From Rhypophila decipiens (taxonomy: Eukaryota > Ascomycota > Sordariomycetes > Sordariales > Naviculisporaceae), in the NCBI GenBank assembly GCA_033297075.1, contig MU858300.1, positions 1 to 43,312 of the forward strand: a stretch of DNA of 43,312 nt, in the 5' to 3' direction. The translations under genes and the position numbers were made by a program. The first letter of the stretch is position 1. The number at the start of each line of letters is the position of its first letter. The notes beneath the pieces were generated by a model. The model was not told where the DNA came from and ran no database searches. It saw only the letters and a program-made list of their open reading frames with translations. Shown piece by piece: positions 4,436 to 42,546 of this stretch.

Positions 4436-5274
4436 GATCCAACCAGAAACCCAATGTACCACTGATAAACAAACCACCAGGTTATACCGCGGTTTAAGCC
4501 GTCGAATGGCCGTAAAGGAGTCTAATTCTAGTGACCTTGAAGACTACCTATATTTCCGCTGATATGTGTAATCCGATGGGCGACAATAGCAATAAGAATC
4601 AGCTCTCTCTATATAATCTAGAAAGAAGCAGTCCGAGTAAGTAGTTCCTTCATAAACACAATGGTCAAAGAGGGTTTTGATTTGATATAGCTAGATGATA
4701 ATACCTTATAGCGCCTCGATGTAGCCTGCTATCTCGTAGATCGTAAACTAGGACCCGAAATGCACCATAGACATCATGTAAAATCCCACCACTTATAGAA
4801 TCTCTGAAAATGTTGATGAAGACAAAAGGTACACATATAAAAGAAGTTAAAAGGACTATATAGTATCTTCCATGGCATGTAATGGCTCCTTATAAGCACT
4901 ACGCTGCCTTCTCTTATATTTATAGGCATATACGTTGGAAGGTTTCTATCCCCCTTTCCAAGCTCGTTACCTACCTGCCTAGCCTTTATATCCCGAGTTT
5001 CACCTCGTATGTTACAAGGCAGTCACGACTTTCACAACCACGGAATTCAGCAACTTCCCAGAAGCCCATTCGTCCCATATCATGCAATTAGGTAATGTCC
5101 TGCATGCCTTGGCAGCATACCGGGTGCGGCAGCGACGTCCAATTGATTATGAGTGGCGGGCCAGTCCAGTGAGTCGCAACTCAATCCCCACAACACCAAT
5201 CAGTACCCACCATCTCTAGTATCACGATCAAACCGAGAACGCAGTTCCCCGCTTCAGCCCAGTCGGGCTGCCGA
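4436..5274. other. Gene-free, TA-rich spacer
   Basis: The DNA between the retrotransposon and the patatin-NACHT gene is visibly richer in A/T and TpA than the flanking genes, especially 4540-4980. I see no credible gene, RNA or repeat in it. It may be decayed transposon DNA affected by repeat-induced point mutation, plus the promoter of the downstream gene. Confidence 0.5.
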
Positions 5275-8200
5275 ATGATTCCCACGCGGACCTCCATGTT
5301 CACGATGTCCTCTTCGAGTATTTTGGAAAGATTTGATCCGCTGGTCGAAGATCAAAACCATCCGCAAGAGCTCCAAAGCCCAGATTTCCCCGAGTCGAGG
5401 CCGGGTCTCGGGCTGAATCTCCTCTGCCTCGATGGCGGGGGTGTTCGAGGGCTCTCTTCCCTGTACATCGTCAAACAGTTGATGGAATCCATCAATCTCG
5501 AGTCTCCCCCAAAGCCATGCCAGATTTTCGACATGATCGGCGGGACTTCGACTGGTGGCCTGATCGCCATCATGCTCGGCCGGCTAGAGATGAGTGTTGA
5601 CGACTGCATCGAAGCCTACAGGGCGATGTCACCCAAGATCTTCACCAAGGTCAACCACAGATTGAACCTACGAGGTAAAGTCCAAGGCCGATTTGACCAC
5701 ACCGCAATCGAGGAAAGTGTCAAGAATATACTTCGGGAGCACCATTTGCCAGAAGACGAGAAGTTCTACCAGCCTTCGAAACATGGCTCTAAGAGATGTA
5801 TGACGTGAGTTGTCAAGACCCAGAAACAGCTTATGCTCTCCGACTGCGGCTCATCAATTTCGCTCCAGATTTGTGTGCGCAACCAGCAAGCAGACGGGAA
5901 AAACCGTCGTCTTCTCGAGTTACCCTTCAGCTCGTCGCGGCCGCAGCCTCCTTGACAGGGCGACAATATGGCAAGTTGCTAGGGCTACTTCTGCTGCCAC
6001 CTCCTTCTTCGATCCTGTCGAGATTGGTGATGAGGAATTCGTCGATGGTGCAACACCAGCCAACAACCCGATAGCGGAGTTGTGGTCTGAGGCGTACGAA
6101 GTCTTTTCCAATGTCGACGCAATCTGGAGCTTGGAAGACAACGTAGCGTGTGTGGTGTCTATTGGCACTGGTGTTCCCATGCTCAGACCTTTTGGTGATG
6201 ACCCACTGAGTATTGGGGCCAAACTGGTCAAGATTGCTACTGACACGGAAAAGGCGGCCGAAGACTTTGCGAGGCACCACCCGCGCTTGGTGAGAGAAGG
6301 TCGTTATTTCCGCTTCAATGTCCAAAAAGGGCTGGAGGCAGTTGGCCTCGAGGAACAGGCTAAGCATAAAGAAATAATCAGCTCCACCAGGTTTTATACG
6401 CAGACCCAGGATGTCCAAAAGTTGATGATGGGTTGTGCTGAGGCGTTGGCCAAAAAGTCGAGGTAGGTCAAGACCCTTCGTTGATGCAAGTCTTCTTATC
6501 TGATGATGGCTTGAGTCATACAGCCTTGGCTCGTAACTATGACTTCGCCCAAGGTGAAGCAAGTCGGCCCGATATTCGAGCTCTCGAACAAAGCCTCCGA
6601 CGTCTCCGCAGTCTTTTCACCATCACCCCTTCTTCCGATGTCCTAGGCTGGTTCACAAACACTTCTGCTTACCAGGATTGGATTTCACTCGGGGGATGCA
6701 TTTATTATCCCTTAACACATGCTACCACGATCGGCTTCGGGAGGTATCTCATAGGTGCTTTGCCTGCCGTGTGGGAGCAGGATCCTCAAGCATTAAACTC
6801 ATCTATCGACAAAGAACCTCCTTGGACCATATATGTGAGATGCGAGAGTATTCCTGACGCCGGTGTATCCGACCTAGTTCGCTCTCTCGTGGCTCAAGTT
6901 ATAGACAGGTGTTTCCCCACCGAGCATCAATGGCTTTCCTTTCACCAGCAGCTTTCTCCTAGAGAACGACAGCTTCTTTCCCGGGACTTAAAGTCCATAA
7001 CCCTACATACATTATTCGATATTCTGCGCCTTCTTCCTTTAGGCCATGGCTCCGCAGTTTTAGAGCACTCCGAGAACTCATCGAATATGAGGCCTTTCCT
7101 CGTCATCATCACCAACGTACATTTTCTACGGAAGGGTTATATTGAAGAGGAAATGACCCAGCTCCGGGCACAACTGGACAGGGTGGGGTTGAGGGTGTTG
7201 CTCACAGGAAAAGAAACATTGGATTTCAATAATTCAAGCTGGGGAGCAAGTCAGTTCCGAAGGGTCGACGAGGCCACTGAATATCGAGGTGAGACTTTTC
7301 ACATGGGTTCATGAATACGTTTTTGTATGCTTGCGTCAACTGACAAACCTGGCTCCAGAGTTTTTAAAATCTATCGAGTTTGACGACATGCACACACGTA
7401 GGAATCAAGTTGGAGTGGCGCTGGGCGGGACAACGGAATGGATCAAAACACATCCCGCCTTTGAGGAGTGGAGTGACGAGGCTGATGGAATTCTCTGGAT
7501 CCAAGGAAAACCTGGCTCCGGAAAGTCTGTGCTCGCCAAATCTATCATTGAGATGATTCAGCAAGCCGGTCCCTCGAATCTTCTCACGGCCAGCTGGTTC
7601 TATAGCAAACGTGGTGGGGATGTGGGAATGTCTCACATCTCCATGATGCGGTCCATTTGTTACCAGCTCTTGAGCCAAAACAGACAACTCTTCCAGGCCT
7701 GTGCGGGTATCTACCGCCAAAGAGGAGACGTCATGGAGAGGCTGCCCAAGATCATGGAAGCAATTCTTGGACATGTGGATAGTCCGCCCATCATCTGCCT
7801 TCTTGATGGACTCGATGAGTCAGCAGATAGGGATGGCAAGCGAGGAAGAGACATGCTGGAGCTTCTTGTCCAGCTGGTAGACAATCCCGGATCCAAGGCA
7901 AAGATCATAGGCCTCAGTCGCCCCTATTCGTCAATCGAAGAGGCGTATGGGACTTATGACATCCTGTTGGAGGCAGAAAATGGCTCAGATATCGAGAAGA
8001 TTGTTGACAGTGGCATGTCATCGCTCGTCGAAGCCATGGAAAGCAAGAAGCCGAGTTCGAATTCATCCTTTGCAAGCAGGCGACGGCAGAAGATTATGGC
8101 GGCTTCTTGCTTTGCAAGCAGGCGACGGCAGAAGATTATGGCCGATCGGCGCCAGGCGTACAACAACAGCCCAGGCCCTGAATTGGACGAGGTGGCGCGG

Positions 8201-9625
8201 AAACAAGAAATGCTGGGCATCAGAACTTACCTGATTGACCGTGCTCAGGGTGTTACCCTCTGGGTAACCCTGTGCATCGACCAAGCGGTCAGGTACGTGA
8301 GCAAGGGGCCCTGTACATGGGCGACCATACGAAGGATGCTAGCCAGCTTGCCTCTCCAAGTCACTGAAATGTACGTCCTAATCACCACGGAGCTTGCTCA
8401 GGAGTGCGGTTCGGAGCATATACGCATGGCCAGAAAGGTCCTTGCGTGGGTCATTGCAGCCAGTGCCAAGCGACCTTTTCTGGTCAGGGAGCTCTTCGAT
8501 GCTGTCTCTATTCCTGATGGCTGGGAAGAACCCCAGCTGGAAAACTGCCGGCAGTCCGATCGAGACCCGATAGCAAGTAACAGACCATTGTGTGACTCCT
8601 GGCCCGACTTTTGCCGCTCTGTCCTGGACATTTGTGGTCCGCTTGTTGAGTTTCTCAATATGGATTCTCAAGAGGGAACTTTCCAGTACGACCGGCTGGC
8701 CAACGTGACAGATGGCTCCGTGGTACAGCTTGTTCACCAGACGGCAAAGGACTTTCTGGAGACTACAGAGGCTCATGTGTTCGCCCTCAAGCCGGGAGAC
8801 TCGCAACATATTTTGGAGATAGACAGCGACTTGTATTTCCAGCTCGTGATACCAATGCAAATCACAAGCTATACACCTGTCTTGGACGATGTCTCGCCCA
8901 ACTGGAGGAAGACAGTCGTGGAAATGGTCGAGTATCTCGACGACAAGCACCTCCTCCCATTCATCCTGACGCACTGTCGCCTAAGGTCTGAGCACACGGA
9001 TATGGCCGCCGCGTCAAACAAGGCCAGATGGATGCTCTCGACCTTCTTCTACGACATGTCTTATCGTGATACTGACGTGGAGGGTGTGCTCGAGCAGACA
9101 GTCGTTGGATCATGCTTTATCCTAGCATGCAAGCGCGGCATGCAAACAGCCGTCGACAACCTCCTATACCTTAGCTCGCTGCGTCCTTCTTGGTGGCGTA
9201 TACACAAACGTGCAGTTATCAGCGCATGTTGGGGAGTGGGCAAGTCACAGAGGCTCTCGGCCGTCGCCAGACTTTTGGAAAACCACAGGCCTCCACGTTA
9301 TACGCCTGCCCGTCGAGACGGCGGAACCTATAATCCTGAGAAACTGTTGTGGCTGAAGCACAGTAAGAATTATAGTCCTGAGGCTGAGAAGCTGCTGCTG
9401 GAGGGGCCGGAAGCTGGGCGTGTGTCACCGGACGCTGGGGATATACGGATACCGGCGGGGGTATACAATGAAGATGAAGTGTTGTTCCCGGAAGTTGCAG
9501 CCGGGCCAAAGCCACTGGTGCAGCAGGCAATCGCAAGAGTTGTGCATTATCTTGATGGTCACTCTCAGCCACTCGAACTCACTCCAGTGGATTGGGTAGG
9601 CAGTCGGGCGCAGTCCAGAGGATAA
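5275..9625 (+). CDS. Patatin-NACHT NLR-like protein, about 1371 aa
   Basis: This is a fungal NOD-like receptor with a lipase effector, probably a cytosolic self/non-self or immune sensor. Proposed exons are 5275-5804, 5869-6462, 6564-7288 and 7359-9625. Introns 1 and 3 join cleanly with good branch sites. The intron 2 acceptor is uncertain (6563 or 6515). The patatin domain shows the oxyanion motif DGGGVRG (about residue 54), the nucleophile motif GTSTGG (Ser92) and the catalytic Asp in FVDGATPANNP (about 236). Exon 3 looks like a degenerate P-loop region (see findings). The NACHT in exon 4 has Walker A GKPGSGKS (from about 7507) and Walker B ICLLDGLDES (from about 7792). A long helical C-terminus follows, with no recognisable ankyrin, WD40 or TPR repeats. 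A 14-residue in-frame duplication lies after the Walker B region. Family assignment is secure; the ligand is unknown. Confidence 0.88.
8068..8142 (+). repeat. In-frame tandem duplication within the NLR gene
   Basis: Two identical 33-bp copies (8068-8100 and 8110-8142) are separated by 9 bp, giving a 42-bp (14-codon) period. Both encode FASRRRQKIMA. Identity at all three codon positions indicates a recent duplication. Confidence 0.92.
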
Positions 9626-16400: not shown

Positions 16401-17459
16401 TTACAAGCACTGGTGATACCAGTCGTTGATCTTCTGGCAGGTGGTGCCAGAGACGCAGGTGAAGGGGCCGTTCCAGCCGTTGCCACCGCACTGGCCCCAC
16501 TTGGGAGAAGCAGGGCCCTGAGTAGGAGGAGTAGGAGTGGGCTGCTGGGGCTGCTGGGTGGTGGTGGTGGTGATGGGAGAAGGACCGGGCTGCTCGGGCT
16601 GGGTGCTGCTGCCGTCGGCCTGGAACTGGCTCCAGAACTCCCAGGTATTGCCGGGCGCGAAGGGCGTGTTGCTGCCCTGGTTGGTCTGGGACGGGTTGTG
16701 ATCGCCGTTAAAGATGACCCACGTTACCGGCTTGCCAGGCTTGCAGTTCTGGTATTGGGTCTTGACCGAGTTGCCGCCCTGGGGCTGGGGCTCGGGGTTG
16801 AGGGGAGTGCAGCCGTTGTTGCGGACAAAGCGGTCACGCATCTGGCGACCTTGGGCAATGGACAGGACAGAGTCCGAGGTTCCGTGCTGGTGGTAGTAGG
16901 CGACGGGGTCGTTGCCACCGTTGCAGCCCGAAAGGACGGCCGAGGACAGAACCGAGATGGCACGGACGTCGTTGGGGCGAGAGCAAGCCCACGAGTAGGA
17001 CATGGCACCACCGTACGAGAAGCCGGTGGCGAAACGAAGGGACTGCTCAACGCACAGGTCGGCCTCGACAGTCCTGACCATGTTGTCGACGAAGGTGATA
17101 TCCTCACCACCTGCGTTGCCCCAGCCCTGGTTCAGGCCGTTGGGGGAGATGAAGATGGCCGAGTTGTTGCCCGTCATAAGAGGGGGCAGGCCATACCAGG
17201 CGAGGGTGCCGCCGCCGCCGTTGGCAATCTGCTGGGCATTGCCGCCCAGGGCGTGGAAGGTGAAGACCAAGCGGTAGGCCTGGTTGGGGTTGTAGTTGTC
17301 GGGCAGCCTGACAATGTACTCGCGCTGCTTGCCGTTGACCGTCATGGTGTACTGGCCCGAGCGGATGGTGTTTGTCTTGCCGCATCCAGGAGAGCGAGCG
17401 CCCAGGACGGGGGCGACGCAAGAAAGCGCCGCCAGAAGGGAGAGGACGGAGAGCTGCAT
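16401..17459 (-). CDS. Secreted CE1 feruloyl-esterase-type enzyme with C-terminal CBM1, 352 aa
   Basis: It probably releases ferulic acid (or acetyl groups) esterified to arabinoxylan, outside the cell. A signal peptide of about 20 residues ends at VLG. The catalytic domain begins SPGCGK, as in FaeC/FaeD-type CE1 enzymes related to PHB depolymerases. The nucleophile is Ser148 in GFSYG, the probable Asp is Asp196 (HGTSDS) and the His is His254 (NGDHNPSQ). A Pro/Thr/Gln linker spans about 281-319. Residues 321-352 form a CBM1 cellulose-binding module (WGQCGGNGW ... NDWYHQCL) with the expected Cys and aromatic residues. It is a single exon, and TATAAAA lies about 105 bp upstream of the ATG. It sits on the same strand as the CE15 esterase gene, about 1.3 kb downstream of it. 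The exact ester substrate is not fixed by sequence alone, so no gene symbol is given. Confidence 0.9.
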
Positions 17460-17561
17460 GTTGACCGGCGGTGTGTGAATGATCAGGACCAGGGAGAGAT
17501 GGTGGGTGATGGCGAGAAGAAGAGAAAGGCTATGGACTGTCCTGGGGAGATGTCCGCCACG

Positions 17562-17568
17562 TTTTATA
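17562..17568 (-). promoter_or_regulatory. TATA box of the CE1 esterase gene
   Basis: TATAAAA reads toward the gene 103-109 bp upstream of its ATG, a normal place for a strongly expressed fungal secreted-enzyme gene. Confidence 0.7.
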
Positions 17569-18229
17569 CATCACGAGGCGAGGTGAATTCAAGATTCTTC
17601 CTTCCCCAGCTTCTGTCAGGTTCGGTTCTCGGAATCGAAGCCGTGAAAATGCGACATCACGGCCTAGATTTCATGGAGTCAAGTCAACATCATCTCCGTT
17701 GCCAAGGACTTGGCTTTCTGGTGGTGATGTTGCTGCTATTTCTGATCTTTACACTAGATGGCCCCAAGAGTTCAGACGAGAAGCGCACCAATGAAGGAGC
17801 ATAGATCTTGGCCGGGGTTGGCATCTTGGTAGCATAAACAGATGTAATGACTGCTTGCAGGTTGGGCTGCTAGTCTGGTGAATGCCATTGCAACGGCCAC
17901 TTTTAGCGACACTGCTAACTGCACTGCCCCTTGTCCGACCAAACAACTTCCCATTCCAGCTTCGGGAGCCGCATCCCTCGCCCGAAATGGTCGATTCGAG
18001 ACTCTGTTCACTCAAACACCTGATACGTCCACATCGTTGGCCAATCCAGTTGCCGAACTCATTTGCCGACCTGCCATTCCAAGATCTAGAATGTCACTGC
18101 ACGGTGCCCAGCCCCGGGGAATGTTGTATCTCTTGTCACCTTGTGGCCCAGTTGATGTCCACAAGACTTGAGGCTCCTTTTGCCACGCCCGTTGTGGGCA
18201 AGTGCCAGGCTTGCCCCAGGTTTTCTCAC

Positions 18230-18797: not shown

Positions 18798-20243
18798 TCA
18801 CGCCAGCGTCGGAACCGTCCAAGGGCACCAGCTGTCCAGGTTAAAGCTACCCAGGTTCTGCTCTGTCCGATAGATACTGGTCGACCCAGCATTGTTGTTC
18901 TTGAGCAAGAACTTGCCAATAAACGCACTCAGCTCGCTTCCCTGCTTCGCACTGGGGAAGCTGCAGTGGCTATTTCCGCCAACTTGCGAATACCCGAACT
19001 TATCCAACGCCCCCAAAGCCTGATATACCTTCCTGCCGCCACCCATGCAGCCATACGTCGACTGTCGACCAAGCCACTCCATATCCGAGTTCTCCATGAC
19101 GTACAACGGTCTAGGCGCCACCAGGCCAGCCAACAAATGGTGGTCAAAGGGCAGTCCATTGACATTGTTCACGTAATTGTTGAAGCTGGTCGAGAACCAG
19201 ACATTCTCAGTTATAATCTGCGGGGCATCCTGGACGTTATTGCCATTCTGCTTCTGCCACCTGGCAATTCTCCAGCAGCCTGATCCTCCGGCTCCCGACT
19301 CCTGGGGCAGAGTCAATGCGATTCTCGGCTCGAGAGCGCCGGCCACAAAGGCGCCCTTGCCGTTGCGCGAGCAGCCCGTTACGCCGATTCGGGTCGGGTC
19401 GATGTTGGTTTGCGCCTGGGTGAGTTCGAGAGCGTCGATGATGCGGCCGACACCCCACGCCCAGGCGGTCAAGGCACCGGCCGAGTGGGACGATCCGTAG
19501 AGATCGAAGAACTTGCCCCGTCCGCGGGAGGCAGAGGCCGACTGCTGGGCGGCGATGTCGTCGTTGTTGAAGAGGATAGTGGCTACGCCGGCGGGGACGG
19601 GGATGGAGGCCATGCCGTAGGCGATGATGGCCGGGTGGGGTCCAGGTCCGGAGGGGCGGTTGTTGATGGTGACCGAGAAGGAGATGGACTTGCCACCGGT
19701 TGAGGCGGTGATGGAAAGAGTCGAGCCCGAGAAGCTGGCGCTGACGCTCGGCTTGGGAGGCAGAGTGCCCAGCTCGTAGCGCTGGAACAGCGTAGAGATT
19801 TCAGACTGTCGGCAATCCCAGAGCGCGGCAGACGTCACCTTGGAGCCATCGGCGAATGTGAATGGGTCATTCAGCGTTGAGACCGAAACGGAGAGGGAGG
19901 AAGGGGTCGACGGGCAGGTCGCCGGACCGCCACCGCCGTTTCCGGGCGACGAGGTAGATGTGGGCCCTGCTGTCGAGGTGGTCACTGTGGACGTGGTCAG
20001 GGTCGTGATGGGAGGCGGGGCCGGTTGTGTGGTGGATGTTGTTCGGATGCTGGTGGTGCTGGTGGTCGGATTGGACCCGGGGATGCACTGATGGTACCAG
20101 TCGTTTTGCTTGAAGCAGTATGCTCCCGACACACAAGTTGTCTGGCCGCTCCAGTTGTTTCCACCGCATTGACCCCAGAGAGACTGTTGTGCTTGTGCGC
20201 CCGTGGCCGCACCGACGACGGCGAGAAGAACGGGAGACCTCAT
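18798..20243 (-). CDS. CE15 glucuronoyl esterase with N-terminal CBM1, 481 aa
   Basis: It is a secreted 4-O-methyl-glucuronoyl methylesterase that cleaves ester bonds between lignin alcohols and glucuronic acid on xylan (Cip2-type). The signal peptide covers residues 1-19 or so (ending AQA). A CBM1 follows at about 21-55 (WGQCGGNNW ... NDWYHQC), then a Thr/Ser/Pro linker to about residue 107, then the alpha/beta-hydrolase domain. The nucleophile is Ser292 in the CE15 signature GCSRNGKG, the acid is Glu315 in LPQESGAGG, and the base is His426 in GGNSHCSFP. The length is normal for fungal CE15 with one CBM. It is a single exon. A TATA box (ATATAAA) lies about 110 bp upstream, and a GGCTAAA site about 425-430 bp upstream. 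Its neighbour on the same strand is the CE1 esterase, which acts on the other main lignin-hemicellulose linkage. Confidence 0.95.
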
Positions 20244-20350
20244 CTTGGGCAGGGAAAGTTGTCAAGCTGGTTACTCTCAAGCCGTGCTGACTGAGCGAGG
20301 TGTAGGTATCAAGACCGTGAAGACATCTCCAGCCCGGGTGCAGGCCGGTG

Positions 20351-22670: not shown

Positions 22671-23297
22671 TTAACAGACGCGTTGGCTTTGGTTGCGAAT
22701 ATCAAAAATGATCTGCTGGTTGCTCAACAAGCCCGAAGGTCCATTCGTCGGCTGCAGCTGCAGCTCGCCCTGAGGTCCGAAGGTAATATTTCGGTTGTTT
22801 GCATCCGGTCGGTTGAGAGTATAAACGATTCTGTCTTCCAGGACATATATCCCATTCCTCGGACCGGGAAATCTTCCGTCCGGGCTGGTCTCGCTCACAG
22901 TGCTGAGAGACGGGGAGATGGCGTAGTTGCGCCCCGTGTAAGTGGCCGTCACACCCGCTGGGACGTTGACCAGACCGCTGGCGCGGCCGATGAATGTCCC
23001 ACTGGTGCAGATGCCCTGCGGGAAGCTCACGATTACCGAGACGTGGCATGTGGAGGCTGGGCGGGTGGGCAGGGTGACGAAGTAGTTGGGCAGGAGGACG
23101 GTGGCGACCTCGTTATCCTCAGAGTAGGTTACAGAGGCGCCGTCACAGCCGCCAAACCGGCTGTCGGCGGTACTGAAGCCGGTGGTGTTGAACTTAGCAC
23201 GGGGGAGGGCTGGCTGGCGAGCTGAGACAGATGCGTCCACAGGGGTGGCGAGGACGCCAGTGATGGGAAGAAGGAGAGCGGTGAGTTGGAACTTCAT
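22671..23297 (-). CDS. Small secreted DUF4360-type protein, 208 aa
   Basis: The protein has a signal peptide of about 17 residues (MKFQLTALLLPITGVLA). The mature part carries the arrangement typical of the fungal DUF4360 family: FGGCDGASVTYSEDNE, then PNYFVTL, a Cys followed by VSVIVSFPQGI, and NVPAGVTATYTGRNY. Length and single-exon structure fit that family. Molecular function is unknown; members are usually extracellular. The C-terminal 30 residues are less typical, and the protein ends in Cys. A TATA-like element lies about 150 bp upstream, next to an inverted repeat. The start is the first ATG and immediately begins the signal peptide. Confidence 0.78.
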   Translation of the reverse strand: MKFQLTALLLPITGVLATPVDASVSARQPALPRAKFNTTGFSTADSRFGGCDGASVTYSEDNEVATVLLPNYFVTLPTRPASTCHVSVIVSFPQGICTSGTFIGRASGLVNVPAGVTATYTGRNYAISPSLSTVSETSPDGRFPGPRNGIYVLEDRIVYTLNRPDANNRNITFGPQGELQLQPTNGPSGLLSNQQIIFDIRNQSQRVC

Positions 23298-23446
23298 TTT
23301 GGAGTTTTGGACTTGAGTTTTGTTGCTGAAGGTGTTGATAAGAACTGGAGGGCAGGCTCTTTGATGCTATGGGGGATGATATGAAGATGAAACTGATGGC
23401 GATGAGGACTAAATTTACATGGAAAGAAGCAGACTATCATGCCGAT

Positions 23447-25427: not shown

Positions 25428-28352
25428 TCAAAGTCTACATACAGCCCCTTTTAAGCATAATATATCCTCCACCACGCTTCTTTCGACGACCCTTGCAGCC
25501 ATGATTTCCCTAACAATCCTCAGCGGCGACTTATGTCCCCAGCAAGTTGTCAGTCGCTCCTCGAGAATTTCCTTCCTTTTTGCAGGGCCCCTATCTGGTC
25601 CGTCATCATCTTCAACTCTTTTGCGGCTCTCATTACAGCCACAGTGAGCAGGGACAGCATTTACAACGGCCCCGGCATCCAAAAGTATCGACACAGCCTC
25701 TTTGTGCATCAACATGGCGGCGCTTTGCAAGGGCGTCTCCGTTACGGACATGTGACTGCCTATAGTAGTAGAGGGATTCACATTCGCCCCGAGCTCAATC
25801 AACATGTCGAGGTGATCCAGCCGAAAGTCAGCCACTATCACATCCGGAGACGCCTTGAGTGCCACCGACAAGAGGGACAATCTCCGACCGGAGGGCGTAG
25901 TAGTTACATATGAAGAAAGGTCTCGTAAACAGTCAAGAAGTAAAAGACGGGTACATTCCGTTGCGTCAAATCGTAGGGCTACCTCCAATGGGGTGCCGCT
26001 GGGGAGATAGTCTTCTGGATGAAGAGAGACGTCAAATTCCTGGAGATCGGATTCAGACTTTTCATTCGACTTCGAGATCCCGCGGTATATTTCTTTCCAC
26101 CAGGTGGCGTCTGATTCGTCCAGAACGAGGTAGCTAGAACTCGTGCCGATGGCCTGTTCTTTGGCCGCCAGAATCATAGATACGACAGACGGCTGGTTAA
26201 AAAAAAACACGCCAGAGTGAGGGCTAGGTCATGCGGGTATGCATTTGAGAGCGAATAACCTGATCATACCGGGTGGATCCAGTCGCTGCCTCCTATGGCT
26301 GGACAGCGCCAGGCTATCCATTTGGAGTGTCTCGGTGTCGGATTGAACAGCTGTAGCAATAGAGAATTGAGTTTGGCTCGAAGAGCTGAGTCTTTTATGC
26401 GAGAGGCTGCAGAGCCCACCCAGGCTGAGCTGGCTAGTTCGAGAAAGGGGAAGGAGGTATGCACTAATGCTCTGTATTCCTTTTGTTCCGAAGAACTGGC
26501 GGAGAGATAGCACTCAGCCGACGGAATTCCTTCGTATGAGATGTTGACGAGGTAGACTAGCGATGCCATCGATGTCTGGTATTGTGCTAGTTCGTCGGAT
26601 GAGTGGAAGTACACAGCGGGCGAATGCATTATTCGGTCCGAGTAGAGGTATTCTAGAACTGTGTAATGGGCGAGTAACAATTGTGATCTTTGGGGGTCGG
26701 TCTCATCCACCCGGACTAGACACGTGCACATTTCGGCGATGAACTCCTTTGGCATGAGTATGCGGTCGGTCGGACTAAAACTCACGGTGTCGATATCGAC
26801 CACGATTGCCTCTGCTATGACCTCTGGCCCTTCGAGCTCGAAGTGTCCACCCGCTAGGAGGAGTAAGGCCTTCTTTGCTCGGTGTTTATGCTCTTCGGGT
26901 ATGCTGAGCAAGATACGTTTGTAGGTCGCATCGAGACCCCGAGGAAGATCACTCAAGGCCTGGCGAATGTCGGGGATGGTGTGAAGCCGGGATAGGACGT
27001 CTATCTGGCAAGAAGCCCATCGAAACCTGTAAATTGTAATCCCAGACGTCAGATTCCAAAGCTGCCAAGAAACGTGTATGAGAATTTGGTGGTACTTGCA
27101 TGCCACATGCCCCCTTCACCAGCCCTCGCTCGATCTCTTGCTTTAGCCATGTCGGGTAGAGGGAAAGTCGGACATTATCGGCCAACTCGCTTCTTATGTA
27201 CATGGCAATGTCCTCGTCGACATGCCTGTTGGACAACGACACCATCTGTGCACACAAACTGCCCATATCCTCACTGATGTCATTCTCTTCTCGGCTCATG
27301 GCGAGGATTTTTAGGTTTGGAAAGCCATCTCGTAGAGACTTCATGACCCGAAGAATGTTGGACCTGTTTTGCGACTCATCCAGCCCATCAACAACAATGT
27401 AGACAGTCTTGAAGCGTTGAGAAAGCTCGCGCATGACTTCCAAGACCGTCCCCGAGTCTGGCTGATGCCCATAGTCATAGAGGTCTTTCAACTCATGTGG
27501 TATGTACTTGACCAGCCTCGCAAGCTGACTTATGATCCATCTCATCAGGGGTAAGGATTCGTCTTGATTTCTGCCAAAGTAGCAGTAGTAATATGTGCAG
27601 ACTGAGGGCAGGTCGCCATCTTTTTTCATGGTCTTGCAGTGGGTTCTGATATCTTCGACAATGTGAGAGAAGAGGACGGTCTTTCCTGCACCTGGGTTTC
27701 CGTAGAACCATATAAGTGAGCATGTCCCTTGTTCGTTCTTCCACCTTCGATACTCTGGTGATTTGTCAAGCCAGAGGCCCGTATGTTTATCGCGCATGGC
27801 GTGCGTGGTGTTGTGGTAAGACGAGGTGTCGGTTGCCACAAGCCAGTCTAGTATCTTTCCACGACTTGTTTCTTGGATATTGAGTAGTACATGACAGCAA
27901 CCATGTATCAGATGAGAAGGTCTTGAATGTGCATGTTGTTCATATCGAAAAGAGTGGTGTAAACCATGCGGACAAAGAATCACCATGGAAATACACGCCC
28001 AATGTGGGTTCCTACACTTGCAGACATTACCTGGATCATCATCTTCTTGCGCCCAATCATCAGGTAACAACTTGTCAATCTCGGTCAAACAATCCCGGCA
28101 TCCCTTGATAGGCCCGTCGTTCCTGCCAAGGCCCAAGAATAGTTGCTCGAGTCCGGGGTTCGAATTGGCCCCACCGTTGGTTTTGTACAGGACCTCGAGA
28201 TTCCCAATGACCGACTTCAGAGTGCTCGTTTCTATCAACAGAACACGGATATCGCTCGGGCAGTATTTGACGGCGGAAATGTACCGGGTACAGCACCTGA
28301 TGACTTGGTCTGTTAAGCCAACCACTGCGATTAGGCTCGCGGCGAACTCCAT
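25428..28352 (-). CDS. HeLo-like / NACHT / ankyrin NLR-like protein, about 871 aa
   Basis: This is a fungal NOD-like receptor, probably a cytosolic sensor that triggers cell death or another response. Proposed exons, in coding order, are 28352-28031, 27871-27100, 27026-26270 and 26192-25428; they total 872 codons including the stop. The N-terminus (MEFAASLIAVVGLTDQV) matches the helical HeLo-like/PF17111-type domain, but only about 107 residues precede the NACHT part. ETSRGKILDWL leads into the NACHT, with Walker A GNPGAGKT and Walker B YIVVDGLDES. The conserved GMFRWASCQID segment is formed across a GC-AG intron. A winged-helix-like region follows (PRGLDATYKRIL, LLLAHYTVLEYL). The last exon has ankyrin-like repeats (GTPLEVALRFDATECTRLLL and TPLQSAAMLMHKEAVSILLD). 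The start is the ATG at 28352. Confidence 0.85.
27027..27099 (-). other. Predicted GC-AG intron in the NACHT-ankyrin gene
   Basis: The donor reads AT|GCAAGT, the consensus for GC-type introns, and the acceptor TTTACAG|G, with a CTGAC branch site between. Splicing joins ACGM directly to FRWASCQ, the conserved NACHT continuation, in frame. The nearest GT donor (2 nt further on, paired with an earlier acceptor) would insert about 13 unconserved residues. Confidence 0.7.
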
Positions 28353-29233
28353 CACTCACTCACGGAGCCACGTGAATTGAGAATGCGGAGAGAGAAATAG
28401 CTCGTTCGGGTAGAGGGTAACGTTTAGAAAATCAGAGATTGAGAAACAGCATCAAGGCCAGACACACGGTCAAGACTTGGATGGACGTTGATTTTCACCG
28501 ACATGTTCAGCTCGGCCAGCCCCTCACTTCTTCACCGCCGCCAAGCAGCAGCACAGCCACCACAATCGCGTCCGAATTACGCCTGACCAGACCAGTAATT
28601 TTCAATGTGTGTGTCCTGAATCTCGCATCCCAATCCAGCCAATAACTTGCCCCGAGACCCTGCAAGCCAAGTGTCAAGCCAGGCAATGCTTCAATGCTTC
28701 GAGATCGCGATCGCCAAGCGACGCCATTAGAAACACTAGTCCCTTAACTGGCCATGACCGTCAAGTCTTGGGAAGCTTGTTAGTGTGATATCTTGGCAGC
28801 TTGGCCTCGTGGTTGACGTTTCTAGTGTGCTGGGACATCTTGGGACGTCTTGGGTTTCTTGGATGGTAAAAAGGTTAAAACGACTACACCTGACATGGTT
28901 TACTCACTGTTCATTAGAGTAAAGGAGGAAATTTGAATGTAAAATGTGGCAGCGTCCTTTCTGGGCTTTATACAATATTTACTTGAGAACAGGCAAATGT
29001 CCCAAGGCCAGTTCTTGGTACTGCAAAACAGCATACGTTACACGTATACACATTCCAAGGCTTGTGGACCAATGCTTAGTCTTTCATAGCAGAGGTGTCA
29101 GGGAGGGCAACATCAGAGTCGCCTTATAGTCAGCAGACGTCATTTATCTGGTACTGATTACTATATGTGATAATCAAAGTGTGGCTGGATGAGGTTAGGT
29201 TATCATTCACTAATACTGACACCACGTTGAAGT

Positions 29234-33275: not shown

Positions 33276-33406
33276 AAGGCAGGCCCGGTCGTGATCTGAA
33301 GTCCATCCTTCTTCTTCATTGGCACCTGTTTTGCTTCTTGTCTAAACAGCCACTCCCTGTCAGCCCTTGCCTTGCTTTGAGATTTTGATCTTGCAGTTTT
33401 TTCACC

Positions 33407-35022
33407 ATGAAGGGCTACCTCGGTTATATCGCCGCTCTGGCGTTGATGGGCCAGACGGCCATGGGTCAGCAGGTGGGCACCCAGACGGCCGAGACGCATC
33501 CCAAGATGACGTGGAAGAAGTGCACGGGCAAGGCTCAGTGCACGACGGTCAACGCCGAGGTCGTCATCGACTCCAACTGGCGCTGGCTGCACACCACGGG
33601 CAGCAACGTCCAGAACTGCTACGACGGCAACAAGTGGACCAGCGCCTGCTCGACCGCTGCCGACTGCGCCTCCAAGTGTGCCATGGAGGGTGCTGAATAC
33701 GCCAAGTCGTACGGTGCCACGACCAGCGGTGACGCCCTCACGCTCAAGTTCGTCACCAAGCACGAGTACGGCACCAACATCGGCTCGCGTTTCTACCTCA
33801 TGAATGGCTCGTCCAAGTACCAGATGTTCACCCTGATGAACAACGAGTTCACCTTCGACGTCGATCTCTCCACCGTCGAGTGCGGTCTCAACTCTGCCCT
33901 CTACTTTGTTGCCATGGACGAGGATGGTGGCATGTCCAAGTTCTCGACCAACAAGGCCGGTGCCAAGTACGGCACAGGTGTAAGTTTTGAGCCCCCCTTT
34001 TATTCTAGTAACAGTAACAAAAGGCTGACGGTGAAAATAGTACTGCGACGCTCAGTGCGCTCGTGATCTCAAGTTCGTCGGTGGCAAGGGCAACGTCGAG
34101 GGCTGGAGGCCATCCTCCAACGATCCCAACGCCGGTGTCGGTCCCATGGGCGGATGCTGCGCCGAAATCGATATCTGGTGCGTCATCCTTTCTCTTTCTC
34201 CCTCTCGCTCTATCCAAGAAAGCCGACTAACCAAGAAAACAGGGAGTCCAACGCGCACGCGTACGCCTTCACTCCCCACGCCTGCACGGACAACAAGTAC
34301 CACGTCTGCGAGACCGACAACTGCGGCGGTACCTACTCCGAGGACCGCTTCGCCGGCAAGTGCGATGCCAACGGATGCGACTACAACCCGTACCGCATGG
34401 GCAACCCCGACTTCTACGGAAAGGGCAAGACGGTCGACACCACCAAGAAGTTCACGTAAGCTTTTTCCCTCATACTTCGTCCTGAATTAAGATATAACTA
34501 ACCTGTCTCCCTCCACACCAGCGTCGTCACCCAATTCCGGGACAACAGGCTCACCCAGTTCTTCGTCCAAAACGGCAAGAAGATCGAGGTTCCTGCCCCC
34601 CAGATGGACGGTGTCCCCTCCGACAGCAGCGACATCACCCCCGAGTTCTGCACAGCCCAGTTCGCTGCCTTCGACGACCGCGACCGCTTCGCAGAGGTCG
34701 GCGGCTTCGATCAGCTCAACACCGCCCTGCGCGTGCCCATGGTCCTCGTCATGTCCATCTGGGACGACCACTACTCCAACATGCTCTGGCTCGACTCCAC
34801 CTACCCCCCCGAGAAGGAGGGCCAGCCCGGCGCCGCTCGTGGTCCTTGCGGACAGGACACCGGTGTCCCCTCCGAGGTCGAGGCTCAATACGCCAACTCG
34901 TATGTTTCCCATCTCTCCTCCTTTAACTCCAATCTTGTCATTTCTAACATTCAATCTCAAACAGCCGCGTCGTCTGGTCCAACATTCGCTTCGGACCTAT
35001 CGGCTCCACCGTCAACGTCTAA
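33407..35022 (+). CDS. Secreted GH7 cellobiohydrolase without CBM, 452 aa
   Basis: It is a reducing-end, retaining cellobiohydrolase (CBH1 type) acting on crystalline cellulose outside the cell. Exons are 33407-33979, 34041-34177, 34243-34455, 34522-34899 and 34965-35022. The introns are 61-66 bp, and GTAAGT-, GTGCGT- and GTATGT-type donors and CTGAC or CTAAC branch sites are visible. The signal peptide ends near TAMGQQ. The catalytic motif is AEIDIWE: nucleophile Glu233, Asp235 and acid/base Glu238. The motif is assembled across intron 2, whose phase-2 junction rebuilds Trp237. Other GH7 marks are [36 protein letters not shown] and [17 protein letters not shown]. The many Cys residues and the loops (GTCGQ-like RGPCGQDTG) favour a cellobiohydrolase over an endoglucanase. 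The protein stops after the catalytic domain (GPIGSTVNV), with no linker or CBM1. The upstream DNA carries a TATA box and candidate XYR1 sites. Confidence 0.95.
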
Positions 35023-38392: not shown

Positions 38393-41300
38393 ATGAGGCG
38401 TTGGGTCACCACAGTGCTGGCAGCGCTGCTTCCAGCCGCCGTCGACGCCGTTCGAATCACCGACTCGCTTCAGGACGCGGTATGGGGACCCAGGTTGCAA
38501 CAGATCATGACCACTTGGAGTATTACTTGCTAACTGCCCATCAACAGGATCCTCCTCAGTCAGGTTACCTCCCGTGTCACAATGTCGACCCAGCAAAGGT
38601 CTCGAGCTATACAAGGATCTGGCAGCAAGTGTTTCTTGCGAATGAATACTTTCATGCCAAGCCGCTCGTCTGGACGCCTCCGGGCTCGACTAATGAGCTG
38701 GTGATTGTTGTTTCTAATCAGAACAATATTCGAGTTCTCGATGGTGCAACAGGCGCTCTCCAGTATAGCCGGCTGGTCCAGCAGCCCTTCATGGCGTCTG
38801 ACTCGAATTGCGGTGACATTCTGTACTCTATCGGCATAACGAGCACGCCGTACATCGACCCGCAGACCGATATCATGTACTTTTTCTCCAAGGGCTACAA
38901 GGCCGGCAAGGGGCCAGGAGACCCTAATGACCCCGGATCTGGAGCTATCAATGGTATTTAGAGGCGCTTTTTTATGGCATCGTGGTCGCTCATCAGTTAC
39001 TAATAAATGTCTTGTCAGGTGTCTACAAGATGTACGCAGTACGACTGCCGACGCTTGTTGACGTGCCGGGATTTCCCGTCATTATCGATGGGAGCAACGC
39101 AGACAATGACCGAACTCGATACTTCCTGGGTGGTACCCATCTCCAGCGGCCGTCCCTGGTATCTGTTGGCAGCAACATCATTGCCGGCTTCGGTGGTCAT
39201 TGCGACATGTTCAACTATACCGGTATGCTAGTCAGTGTCTCCAAGACGGCCGGTGTCGGCGTCACAGGAGTACAAGCCATGGTTGCAGCTCCGGGGGCGC
39301 CCAGTCCCCAGCCGCTGGACATTCATGTCGAACAGGGCGGCAAGGGCGGCATCTGGCAGTCTGGAGCTGGCCTTGCGGTAGATGGACGTCGTGTCTTCTT
39401 TTCAACTGGGTACGTTTAGCAGACTTTTCTCGAGCCATGTGATGGATGATGGCCGCTAACTGTGAGCGAAGAAACGGCCGGGGACCTGGCGAGAACAAGG
39501 GAACCACTCCAAGAAGTGGCAAGACGTACCTCAGCACTCTTGAGCAGGCGGCTTGCTCCTTCAACGTCGAGAGCTCAGGGGCTTTGAGGCAACTGGATTG
39601 GTTCGAAACTTACAATTTTGACAGCTTCAATGGCGGCGACCGTGATATTGGCTCTTCAAATGTGGCACTTCTGGACCCCAACACGTTTAATGGTGGAGGT
39701 GTTAGTCGTGTGGCGGTGATGGGAAGCAAAGCGGGCATCGTCTACATCATGGACGCCGATAACCTTGGAGGATTTATGATGGGTGAGACGCTTGCGAGAG
39801 TTCATGATCAACATCAAAGTGCCAGCTAACCGTTTGTCAGGACCTGGGGGCTCTGATGCCATTCTGCAGACCATCACCTTACCCGGTTCATTCTTTGGCG
39901 GTATTGGCAGCTACCCCCAAGAGGGCGGTTATCTCTAGTGAGCTCACATGACCCTCCTTGCCACTCTCATTTTTGTAGGGGCTAACAATGTCAGTCTCGT
40001 CGCTTCGGGAGGCCCCGTTTACGCTTACAAATTCGGTCGAGATGGGAGCGGAAAACCCGTCTTCACTCAGGCAGGAAAGAGTGCCCAAGCCTTCTCGGGT
40101 TGGAACAGTCCTGTGGTCACGACACTTAACGGGCAAGCCGGCACGGCTGTTGTAAGTTGAGCTAGCATATGCAGACCGAGCTCGAATGCTAATCATGTTT
40201 GACTAGTTGTGGCTTTCCGATGTCAACACGGGTCTTGTGGCCTACAAAGCCATCCCCGTCAATGGCGTGCTGGAGCCATATACATTTTACCAGACAGGGA
40301 GACTGACAAAATTCCAAAGGCCCGTGTTTGGAAACGGCAGAGTCTTCACATCCCGGGGACAAACCATCCTGGCCATGGCACCTCCGGGACCGGCACCTAC
40401 GTATCCAGCAAGCTGCGCCGGTGGAAGTGGAGGCGGCCCCAACAGTCCGCAGCCAACCCTGAGCTCCACGACTTCACCAAGCTCGACGAGATCTTCGACT
40501 ACCACGACGACTTCTACTCGGTCATCGACCACGTCGACTTCTCGGAGCTCAACAACTTTGACGACATCTAGGTCAAGTACCACATCAACAACATCCAGAT
40601 CCAGCTCTACCTCTACCACCCGGTCAAGCACCACAACCTTGACCTCGCGATCGAGCACAAGCACTACGACATCCAGATCTAGCAGCAGCACGTCGACATC
40701 AAGATCCAGCTCCACGTCGACATCACGGTCCAGCACTACCACTACATCAAGATCTAGCACCACCAGCACTTCCACGTCGAGAACTAGCTCAACTAGCACT
40801 GTATCAGCCAGCTTACCACCTTACCCGAGCTATACCAACAATCCCATCCCCAAGGGAAAGCTCATCACGTACAACTGGAACGTCACCTGGGTCTCGGGGT
40901 CGCCCGATGGATTCAGACGACCATTTGTGGGCATCAATGGACAGTGGCCATGCCCACCTATCAAGGGCAATATTGGTGACGAGATCAAGATCAACCTCGT
41001 CAACATGCTTGGCAACCAGACAACAACGCTTCACTTCCACGGATTGTTTCAGTACAACACGACTTTTGAAGACGGCCCTGCCATGGTGAACCAGTGCCCA
41101 ATCTCACCTGGAGGCTCGTTCGTGTACCAGTTCAAGCTTCAGCAGCGGGGTACATACTGGTATCACGCCCATGTTGGCGGTCAGTACATTGATGGTCTGC
41201 GTGGGCCTCTTATCATCAATGATCCCAAGGCACCATGGGCAATTACCGGCTCACAGTGGAGGATCGACCAGGAATATACACTCACCTTGACCGACCTGTA

Positions 41301-42546
41301 TCACCAGCAAGCTCCATATCTCATACATTACTACTTGTCGCCCGAGAACGCTGATATAAACGGCGGCGCGGAGCCGGTCCCTGACACTGCCTTGATCAAC
41401 GAAGCACAGGGTGCCAAATTTGCCATGTCACCCGGAAAGACGTACCTGTTCCGCGTCATCAACATGGGCATCCTCGCTGGCCAATATCTCCAGTTTGACC
41501 AGCATGACATGTTCATTGTCGAGGTGGACGGCGTGTACACGCTGCCCAAGAAGGTGGACCAGCTGTTTGTCGCCGTCTCACAGCGGTATTCCGTTATCGT
41601 CAAAGCAAAAGCCACAGCAGCTCAGAACTTTGCCATCGTATCGCAGTTCAACACTGACATGTTTGGTTCCTCTGTGACTCCTCCGGGCATGAATCCAGTC
41701 GGTACTGCTTACCTTGTCTATGACGCAGGCAAGCCTCTTCCCCAGCCCTTTGACCTCACACCAAAGGTCTGGGATGATACCGAGCTTGTGCCGTGGGATA
41801 AAGAGCCAATGCTGGACGGGCCTAACGTGCGGGCCTTGACATTTTCGGTTGTGTTTGGTATTGACAATGCTGGGTCCATGCGTGGTTACCTGAGCAGTCT
41901 CACTTATGTCCCACAAAAGGTTTGTTCTCTGCGAGGTTCTGAACGGCATCAAGATTCTTACTGACTAAATTTCTAGGTTCCCACGCTCTTCACGGCACTC
42001 ACTGCACCTGCCGAGTACGTCATGAATCCAGCAATTTATGGCCGCGTCAATCCCCGTGTTCTACAGTTCAACTCCATCGTCGAGGTCACGGTCAACAACC
42101 ATGACTCCCGAGCCCATCCCTTCCACCTGCACGGTCACAACTTCCAGGTGATTAACCGTGGCGAGGGAGGCGCTCTTTGGCCTGGACTGTCCACTCTCCC
42201 TCAGTACCCCATGAAGCGTGACACGGTTACCGTTTATGGCGGCTCATCGGTCACTATTCGGTTCAAGGCTGACAACCCTGGAATAAACCTGTTTCACTGC
42301 CACACCGAGTGGCACGTCGAAAACGGGCTCACGGCAACCTTCATCGAGGCACCCGATGTGCTCCAGAGCTACAAGCCGTATATCCCAAATAGCCACAAGA
42401 CGGCTTGCGACACACTCAAGATTTCTCGAAAGGGCAATGCTGCGGGCAATTCCAAGAACTGGCTGGATCTGACGGGTGCCAATACGGAGCCCGAGGACCC
42501 TGGCCGGTACTGGGGTGCCATGGTTCAGCCGCCTCTTCTTGTCTAG
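38393..42546 (+). CDS. Secreted fusion: PQQ/quinoprotein-like beta-propeller + Ser/Thr linker + Fet3-like multicopper oxidase, 1243 aa
   Basis: Exons are 38393-38479, 38548-38953, 39019-39409, 39472-39782, 39841-39937, 39995-40151, 40207-41919 and 41977-42546, with 55-68 bp introns, nearly all with CTAAC-like branch sites. Every junction keeps frame (1244 codons). A signal peptide (about residues 1-19) is followed to about residue 545 by repeats of PQQ-propeller type: NNIRVLDGATGALQY, GIVYIMDADN, GGPVYAYKFG and WLSDVNTGLVAYKA. A Ser/Thr/Arg linker spans about 565-684. The multicopper oxidase (about 685-1243) has all four copper motifs: HFHG (759-761), YWYHAH (803, 805), HPFHLHGH (from 1101) and HCHTEWH (Cys1162), with Leu at Cys+10. 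Its NPGINLFHCH and PQKVPTL segments are Fet3-like, but there is no C-terminal membrane anchor. Role: extracellular oxidation coupled to oxygen reduction (family knowledge). Substrates and any propeller cofactor are unknown. Confidence 0.9.
40450..40810 (+). repeat. Degenerate tandem repeats coding the Ser/Thr/Arg linker
   Basis: The 120-residue linker is built from variants of SRSSTTSTT (7-10 codons), with recurring DNA words such as AGATCTAGCA, AGATCCAGCTC and ACGTCGACATC. It should be heavily O-glycosylated and extended. Such repeats are prone to length variation between strains. Confidence 0.85.

Follow-up and report, generated by a model that had tools for sequence, protein, structure and literature searches.

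A secreted protein of the fungus Rhypophila decipiens joining a predicted quinoprotein-class propeller to a multicopper oxidase

As far as the available parts of the papers cited here go, the fungal AA12 family was described in 2019 as the first eukaryotic family of pyrroloquinoline quinone (PQQ) enzymes and the only one then known (PMC6881810), and a 2026 paper on Tc323 of Trypanosoma cruzi gave the AA12 member CcPDH as the sole eukaryotic PQQ enzyme, Tc323 aside, whose activity had been demonstrated (PMC13384848). CcPDH is a multi-domain protein with an AA8 redox partner and a CBM1 (PMC5960967, PMC6881810), TrAA12 resembles bacterial soluble glucose dehydrogenase in being a propeller of six blades (PMC6881810), and Tc323 is reported to be PQQ-dependent, with uncharacterised fungal and plant domains placed nearby in the PQQ alcohol dehydrogenase (PQQ-ADH) superfamily (PMC13384848). 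In bacterial enzymes of the methanol dehydrogenase (MDH) type, the metal ligands include Glu177 and Asn261 in MxaF and Glu172, Asn256, Asp299, and Asp301 in XoxF (PMC11845868). The present study concerns a stretch of 43,312 nucleotides (the window; positions 1-43312 of a contig in the 45.7-Mb genome of Rhypophila decipiens) and, within it, one gene whose product joins a propeller, predicted to be of the quinoprotein class, to a multicopper oxidase (MCO). The fungus is sordarialean, and the propeller and MCO halves of the protein each come from known superfamilies. The first-pass annotation did not know this architecture as a characterised enzyme, and in the open-access literature, as represented by the titles and abstract openings listed (subscription papers and preprints falling outside this scope), no MCO-propeller fusion is described.

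The gene model was rebuilt from the DNA and comprises eight exons (38393-38479, 38548-38953, 39019-39409, 39472-39782, 39841-39937, 39995-40151, 40207-41919, and 41977-42546), whose joined reading frame contains no internal stop and leads from a signal peptide through the propeller and a Ser/Thr/Arg linker to a three-cupredoxin MCO (Table 1). All seven introns are of the GT-AG type and measure 55 to 68 nt, and each carries near its 3' end a CTAAC-, CTAAT-, or CTGAC-like motif that, by eye, resembles a branch site. For intron 5, the acceptor at 39994, which follows GCTAAC, preserves the frame and is the same as in the NCBI model P0121; two alternative boundaries for this intron were ruled out by the stops that result from them. 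P0121, the identical R. decipiens protein at NCBI (542 aa, 100% identity), is marked partial and ends shortly before the linker, thus hiding the fusion in public annotation, and its agreement with our model serves as an outside check on the splicing of exons 1 to 6 and of the start of exon 7. The signal peptide, identified by eye, coincides with the hydropathy profile, in which the top three 19-residue windows of the protein start at residues 5, 4, and 8. Exon 7 lies in a stop-to-stop frame of 585 codons (40207-41964), and its frame is open throughout, the linker region at 40450-40810 included. The one-gene fusion, the signal peptide, the in-frame splice junctions, and the single exon shared by the two modules thus stand as the first-pass annotation had described them; its linker is likewise present but counts 125 residues (53 Ser, 47 Thr, and 12 Arg) rather than 120.

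Altogether, we regard it as almost certain that a single gene encodes both modules. A prediction artefact, in which two adjacent genes were merged via the Ser/Thr-rich stretch, is very improbable: the NCBI model and the models of several relatives do stop after the propeller or start in the linker, but exon 7 is open across both parts, the hydropathy scan detected no signal-like stretch ahead of the oxidase, and fused models occur in 10 other proteins among the matches listed. Two of these, P0005 and P0010, lie on contigs of just 4577 and 4441 nt with open reading frames of ~3.8 and ~4.2 kb, and look like reading-frame calls on transcripts. A plasmid search with the oxidase DNA as query gave no match, and a scan of the linker for bacterial-type promoters and terminators is uninformative for fungal DNA.

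The architecture recurs in other fungi, as a full-length homology search revealed. Among 7995 candidates scored, 456 matched at E≤0.001, and the best 120 of these 456 include at least 10 other proteins in which propeller and oxidase stand together, with Apodospora, Podospora didyma, Pleurostoma, Acephala, Drepanopeziza, Rhynchosporium, and Cadophora as named sources, all of them Sordariomycetes or Leotiomycetes. WSC domains are found in 4 of 10 fusions (P0006-P0009); in P0006 and P0007 they separate the propeller from the oxidase, and the P0010 fusion has a WSC match just under the cut-off. In the 341 proteins collected, both parts were matched in 12, P0222 and P0224 with just the final 48 to 54 propeller residues. 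Moreover, among the "single" oxidase models that are closest, nine start within propeller, linker, or WSC sequence, and five propeller/oxidase model pairs agree in organism name and contig size, which suggests that these pairs are split models of one gene, or neighbouring genes.

In an oxidase tree of 75 rows (P0236 being dropped as too short), all 11 full fusions and the nine truncated oxidase models just mentioned fall into one 34-row clade with support 100/100, whose remaining 14 rows, counting P0241, are unlabelled; its sister consists of 7 rows, 6 of them with their own signal-like N-terminus. P0241 is an exception inside the fused clade, since it looks like a single oxidase with its own signal-like N-terminus on a long branch (90/73). 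The propeller tree, built by a quick method from 91 rows picked from 181, places all 11 fusions in a 24-row clade (Shimodaira-Hasegawa-like approximate likelihood ratio test [SH-aLRT], 99) together with 13 rows not known as fused, and because of this mixing a single origin of the fusion is argued from the oxidase tree. Two fused-clade oxidases from Hyaloscypha, P0248 and P0250, open with long Ser/Thr stretches and may be truncated fusions, with this or another partner. In the R. decipiens genome, the sole other propeller of the fusion's family found (G000:C23:171457-173034; 5 candidates scored) is probably the WSC protein P0017.

As to the fold, the Foldseek and VIA matches indicate that the predicted propeller module is eight-bladed and of the quinoprotein class. 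The first-pass annotation had proposed a PQQ-like beta-propeller at residues 20-545 and had named structure prediction as a check; the AlphaFold model is a confident propeller, with a predicted local distance difference test (pLDDT) score of 91.6. Foldseek ranks bacterial PQQ dehydrogenases first, and the Foldseek and VIA matches comprise PQQ-ADH, XoxF, and MxaF as well as the eight-bladed designs Tako8, Cake8, and v31Bagel8, the VIA identity to solved bacterial PQQ dehydrogenases being 11 to 16%. At the level of sequence, the Pfam search suggested at that time returned the three Cu-oxidase domains, and over all 1243 residues no propeller or PQQ match reached E≤1; P0121 has a sub-threshold match to PQQ_2 (E 0.018), Pfam and NCBIfam together give almost no matches on the propeller, phmmer finds none in the PDB at E≤1, and the family profile finds there short blade-type matches only, mostly to YxaL, BamB, and designs. 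The propeller family has remained hidden so far because Pfam barely detects it and because annotation cuts the fusion gene. Identity as a glyoxal oxidase, the UniRef name of P0127, was set aside in view of the fold and the profile, which both favour quinoproteins.

The evidence for a cofactor site comes from aligning the family profile to a pool of eight bacterial sequences of the PQQ-dehydrogenase class, namely E. coli Gcd, MxaF (which we take to be such from its gene neighbours), XoxF5, four further annotated dehydrogenases, and one PQQ-like protein. Against this pool the local probability was 97.3 to 97.7 in four reference frames. W277 lies opposite Trp and K381 opposite Lys or Arg in all four frames, N296 opposite Asn in three (Val in Gcd), and D353 opposite the W-D motif's Asp in three; in the Gcd frame it is D351 that meets the W-D Asp, and D353 lies opposite the Asp two further on. 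In quinoproteins, this Trp stacks on PQQ and the Lys or Arg binds it. All four letters are present in 205 of the 210 evaluable relatives (9/9 evaluable of 10 fused, 156/161 evaluable of 167 other fungal-like, and 40/40 bacterial-like), a count that used 217 of 223 matches, 6 being excluded by coverage or span, and the four positions are all among the 26 columns conserved at ≥90% in the family alignment of 542 query positions. Taken singly, three of the eight pool members span all four sites, each with W, N, D, and K, and none that covers any site differs. These alignments suggest that the propeller retains the central residues of a PQQ/metal site of the MDH type; the propeller is probably a redox domain, and we lean towards its being a catalytic domain of the quinone type. 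Three outlying relatives with altered site letters, P0165, P0166, and P0167 (Geopyxis and Coprinopsis being the named sources of two), offer a possible natural loss-of-site control.

Nevertheless, several observations weigh against a two-module redox enzyme with a working quinoprotein site. The per-residue alignment confidence at D353 is low (3 on a scale to 9). There is no clean counterpart of the metal Glu, for which D227 is a near neighbour (Glu itself occurs in 5 of the 8 pool members), and the vicinal Cys-Cys, whose disulfide sits over PQQ in the alcohol dehydrogenase subgroup, is absent, as it also is in 3 of the 8, E. coli Gcd included. Single quinoproteins align weakly to the family profile (local probability 2.5 to 56), the high value above being due to pooling. 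BamB is a propeller that is not known as an enzyme, and the single E. coli BamB sequence scores 36 to 37, inside the quinoprotein range, so that single quinoproteins on the whole do no better; its global alignment, an unconfident one, pairs N296 with N, D351 with D, and K381 with K, and leaves W277 unpaired. According to the available text, PQQ binding was looked for and not seen in a PQQ-like domain from Teredinibacter (PMC10916295). Moreover, most propeller relatives among the matches listed are without an MCO in their models, and the full-length model of the ortholog P0004 has a predicted template modelling (pTM) score of 0.53, its two modules being predicted confidently and the linker between them with low confidence. 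As for BamB, a profile of 78 close sequences (80 loci, 3 dropped for stops) scored 35 local and 0.3 global and covered only N296 among the sites; the contrast with the quinoprotein pool is no more than suggestive, the BamB profile being the less diverse of the two (effective number of sequences 1.4 versus 3.2).

It is a serious possibility, if short of probable, that the propeller serves for binding or spacing and has no catalytic role, in which case the propeller or the relatives' WSC domains would anchor the oxidase on the plant or fungal cell wall and the oxidase alone would act on phenols or metal ions. The first-pass annotation had likewise considered delivery of the oxidase to a polymer. 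Many of the listed propeller relatives bear WSC domains, as do the fusions P0006-P0009 (on a WSC domain, see PMC8400822), designed propellers and YxaL rank among the best VIA matches, the BamB controls are not cleanly separated on single sequences, and PQQ-like names have misled before, as in the Teredinibacter case. A scaffold, however, would have no evident need to hold Trp, Asn, Asp, and Lys at the quinoprotein places in nearly all of the fungal and bacterial relatives counted above.

The second module has its copper ligands complete (ten His and one Cys). The solved structure closest to it by sequence is yeast Fet3p (4.1e-109), followed by fungal laccases, and the model of P0004 likewise has Fet3p as its best match (1.2e-59). 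In Fet3p, E185, D283, Y354, and D409 are required for its action on iron. Of these four, E185 and D409 are retained by 33/33 fused-clade rows; the position of D283 is Gly in the R. decipiens fusion, beside a gap (Gly in 11, Asp in 10, Asn in 6, and Ala in 3 of 33), and that of Y354 is Arg, here and in 32 of 33 rows. No C-terminal membrane helix was seen, no C-terminal window being among the 12 most hydrophobic. By its sequence the oxidase is clearly Fet3-like, and less clearly a ferroxidase. A secreted Fet3-type ferroxidase or manganese oxidase, with a propeller that would bind or reduce the metal or its ligand, draws on the closeness to Fet3p and on the two invariant acidic residues, but the absence of D283 and Y354 and the missing membrane helix argue against it, and we consider it improbable.

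We propose, tentatively and as the best explanation of these findings, one secreted two-module redox enzyme in which electrons from an oxidation in the propeller would pass to the coppers and on to O2. The propeller would oxidise an alcohol or a sugar by means of PQQ taken up from the surroundings, as in fungal AA12 enzymes; fungi are described as without PQQ-making machinery, and extracellular enzymes can find PQQ in the medium (PMC6881810, available text). A PqqC search of the R. decipiens genome was uninformative, as it gave no match and the control genomes gave none either. Electrons of the reduced PQQ would then reach the type 1 copper and reduce O2 at the trinuclear site. Since the linker of P0004 is of low confidence, a fixed contact between the modules is unsupported, and transfer would occur by collision of the tethered modules or via small phenol/quinone mediators re-oxidised by the oxidase. 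The fusion would be a self-contained oxidase that acts in the vicinity of plant or fungal cell walls and yields water instead of H2O2. That propeller and copper centres act as one electron chain is possible and rather doubtful. The fullest form of the proposal, a working MDH-type PQQ dehydrogenase domain that represents a second fungal quinoprotein class beside AA12 and whose fused MCO carries alcohol or sugar electrons via PQQ and four coppers to O2, forming water, appears on the unlikely side. On this reading, the Asp-x-Asp pair could even accommodate a lanthanide, as in XoxF.

Table 1. Positions of the fusion gene, its modules and candidate site residues, and of lignocellulose-related neighbours in the window
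Feature	Position	Strand	Basis or remark
Whole fusion gene	38393..42546	+	8 exons, 1243 aa; model rebuilt from DNA
Signal peptide, residues 1-19 (MRRWVTTVLAALLPAAVDA)	38393..38449	+	By eye
Propeller module, residues 20-542, across exons 1-7	38450..40383	+	AlphaFold, Foldseek, VIA
C117	38809..38811	+	Aligned with the first of the two vicinal Cys in PQQ alcohol dehydrogenases; pair absent
D227	39204..39206	+	Conserved acidic; adjoins place of MDH metal Glu, pooled alignment one residue off
W277	39354..39356	+	Aligned with PQQ-stacking Trp (pooled profile)
N296	39473..39475	+	Aligned with metal-binding Asn (N261 MxaF, N256 XoxF)
D351-x-D353	39638..39646	+	Aligned with catalytic/metal Asp region (D299, D301 of XoxF); which is the base uncertain
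K381	39728..39730	+	Aligned with PQQ-binding Lys/Arg
Exon 7	40207..41919	+	1713 nt; one open frame through the final propeller strands, the linker, and most of the oxidase
Ser/Thr/Arg linker, residues 558-682	40429..40803	+	Partly 24-nt-period repeats
Cu-oxidase_3, first cupredoxin domain, residues 709-824	40882..41229	+	Pfam
Cu-oxidase, second cupredoxin domain, residues 839-989	41272..41724	+	Pfam
Cu-oxidase_2, third cupredoxin domain, residues 1050-1181	41905..42357	+	Pfam; split by intron 7
H1161-C1162-H1163, type 1 copper Cys and two trinuclear-site His	42295..42303	+	Sequence
CBM1-bearing esterase	16401-17570	-	Pfam; esterase match weak (E 0.00012)
CBM1 fungal glucuronoyl esterase	18798-20261	-	Pfam
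GH7 cellulase, first part	33389-34066	+	Pfam

The cellulase and esterases that the first-pass annotation had seen in the region are borne out by Pfam, the match of the CBM1-bearing esterase being weak, and two esterases and a GH7 cellulase form a small lignocellulose group on the contig of the fusion gene. Elsewhere in the window, a retroelement lies at the contig end (1-3977, minus strand), with a reverse transcriptase and a sub-threshold aspartyl protease match; by eye, an upstream frame in it shows a zinc-knuckle-like CxxCxxxGHxxxxH motif. A patatin frame followed by a NACHT-type frame (5173-9625, plus strand) and a second NACHT-type gene (26949-28355, minus strand) are in the style of fungal NOD-like receptor (NLR)-like proteins, and a small secreted-looking protein (22671-23366, minus strand) has a DUF4360 match under the Pfam cut-off.

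If the propeller does bind PQQ, this ascomycete family would constitute a further eukaryotic quinoprotein class. A natural union of a quinoprotein-type domain with an oxygen-reducing copper enzyme would, moreover, provide a ready-made design for biocatalysis and bioelectrodes.

With respect to known systems, the propeller shares its fold class with the bacterial MDH-type PQQ dehydrogenases (MxaF, XoxF, quinohemoprotein ADH, and E. coli Gcd) and, in profile alignment, also their four core letters at the site; unlike these, the fusion is fungal, secreted, and joined to an MCO, lacks the vicinal Cys pair and a clean metal Glu, and is a putative PQQ binder. In E. coli K-12 (L017:1-3226), the genes cueO, for a multicopper oxidase, and gcd, for a quinoprotein, are convergent neighbours, which is probably a coincidence. 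The likeness to fungal AA12 enzymes (CcPDH, TrAA12) lies in the idea of a secreted fungal quinoprotein, whereas PF22807, the six-bladed AA12 propeller, finds no match at E≤1 in the 1243-aa fusion protein and does match other loci of the R. decipiens genome, where AA12 loci are thus present. Tc323 is a eukaryotic propeller of the PQQ-ADH superfamily that is also without adjacent cysteines, but it has six predicted nine-bladed propellers and is membrane-associated, and the term "multicopper" is absent from the available text of its description (PMC13384848). Yeast Fet3p and other fungal MCOs share the three cupredoxin domains and all copper ligands with the fusion; Fet3p, however, has no propeller, and the fusion has neither a transmembrane helix nor D283 and Y354 of Fet3p. 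Finally, the WSC-propeller proteins of Ascomycota belong to the same propeller family, at about 45 to 58% identity among the matches listed, and their models contain the propeller without an MCO.

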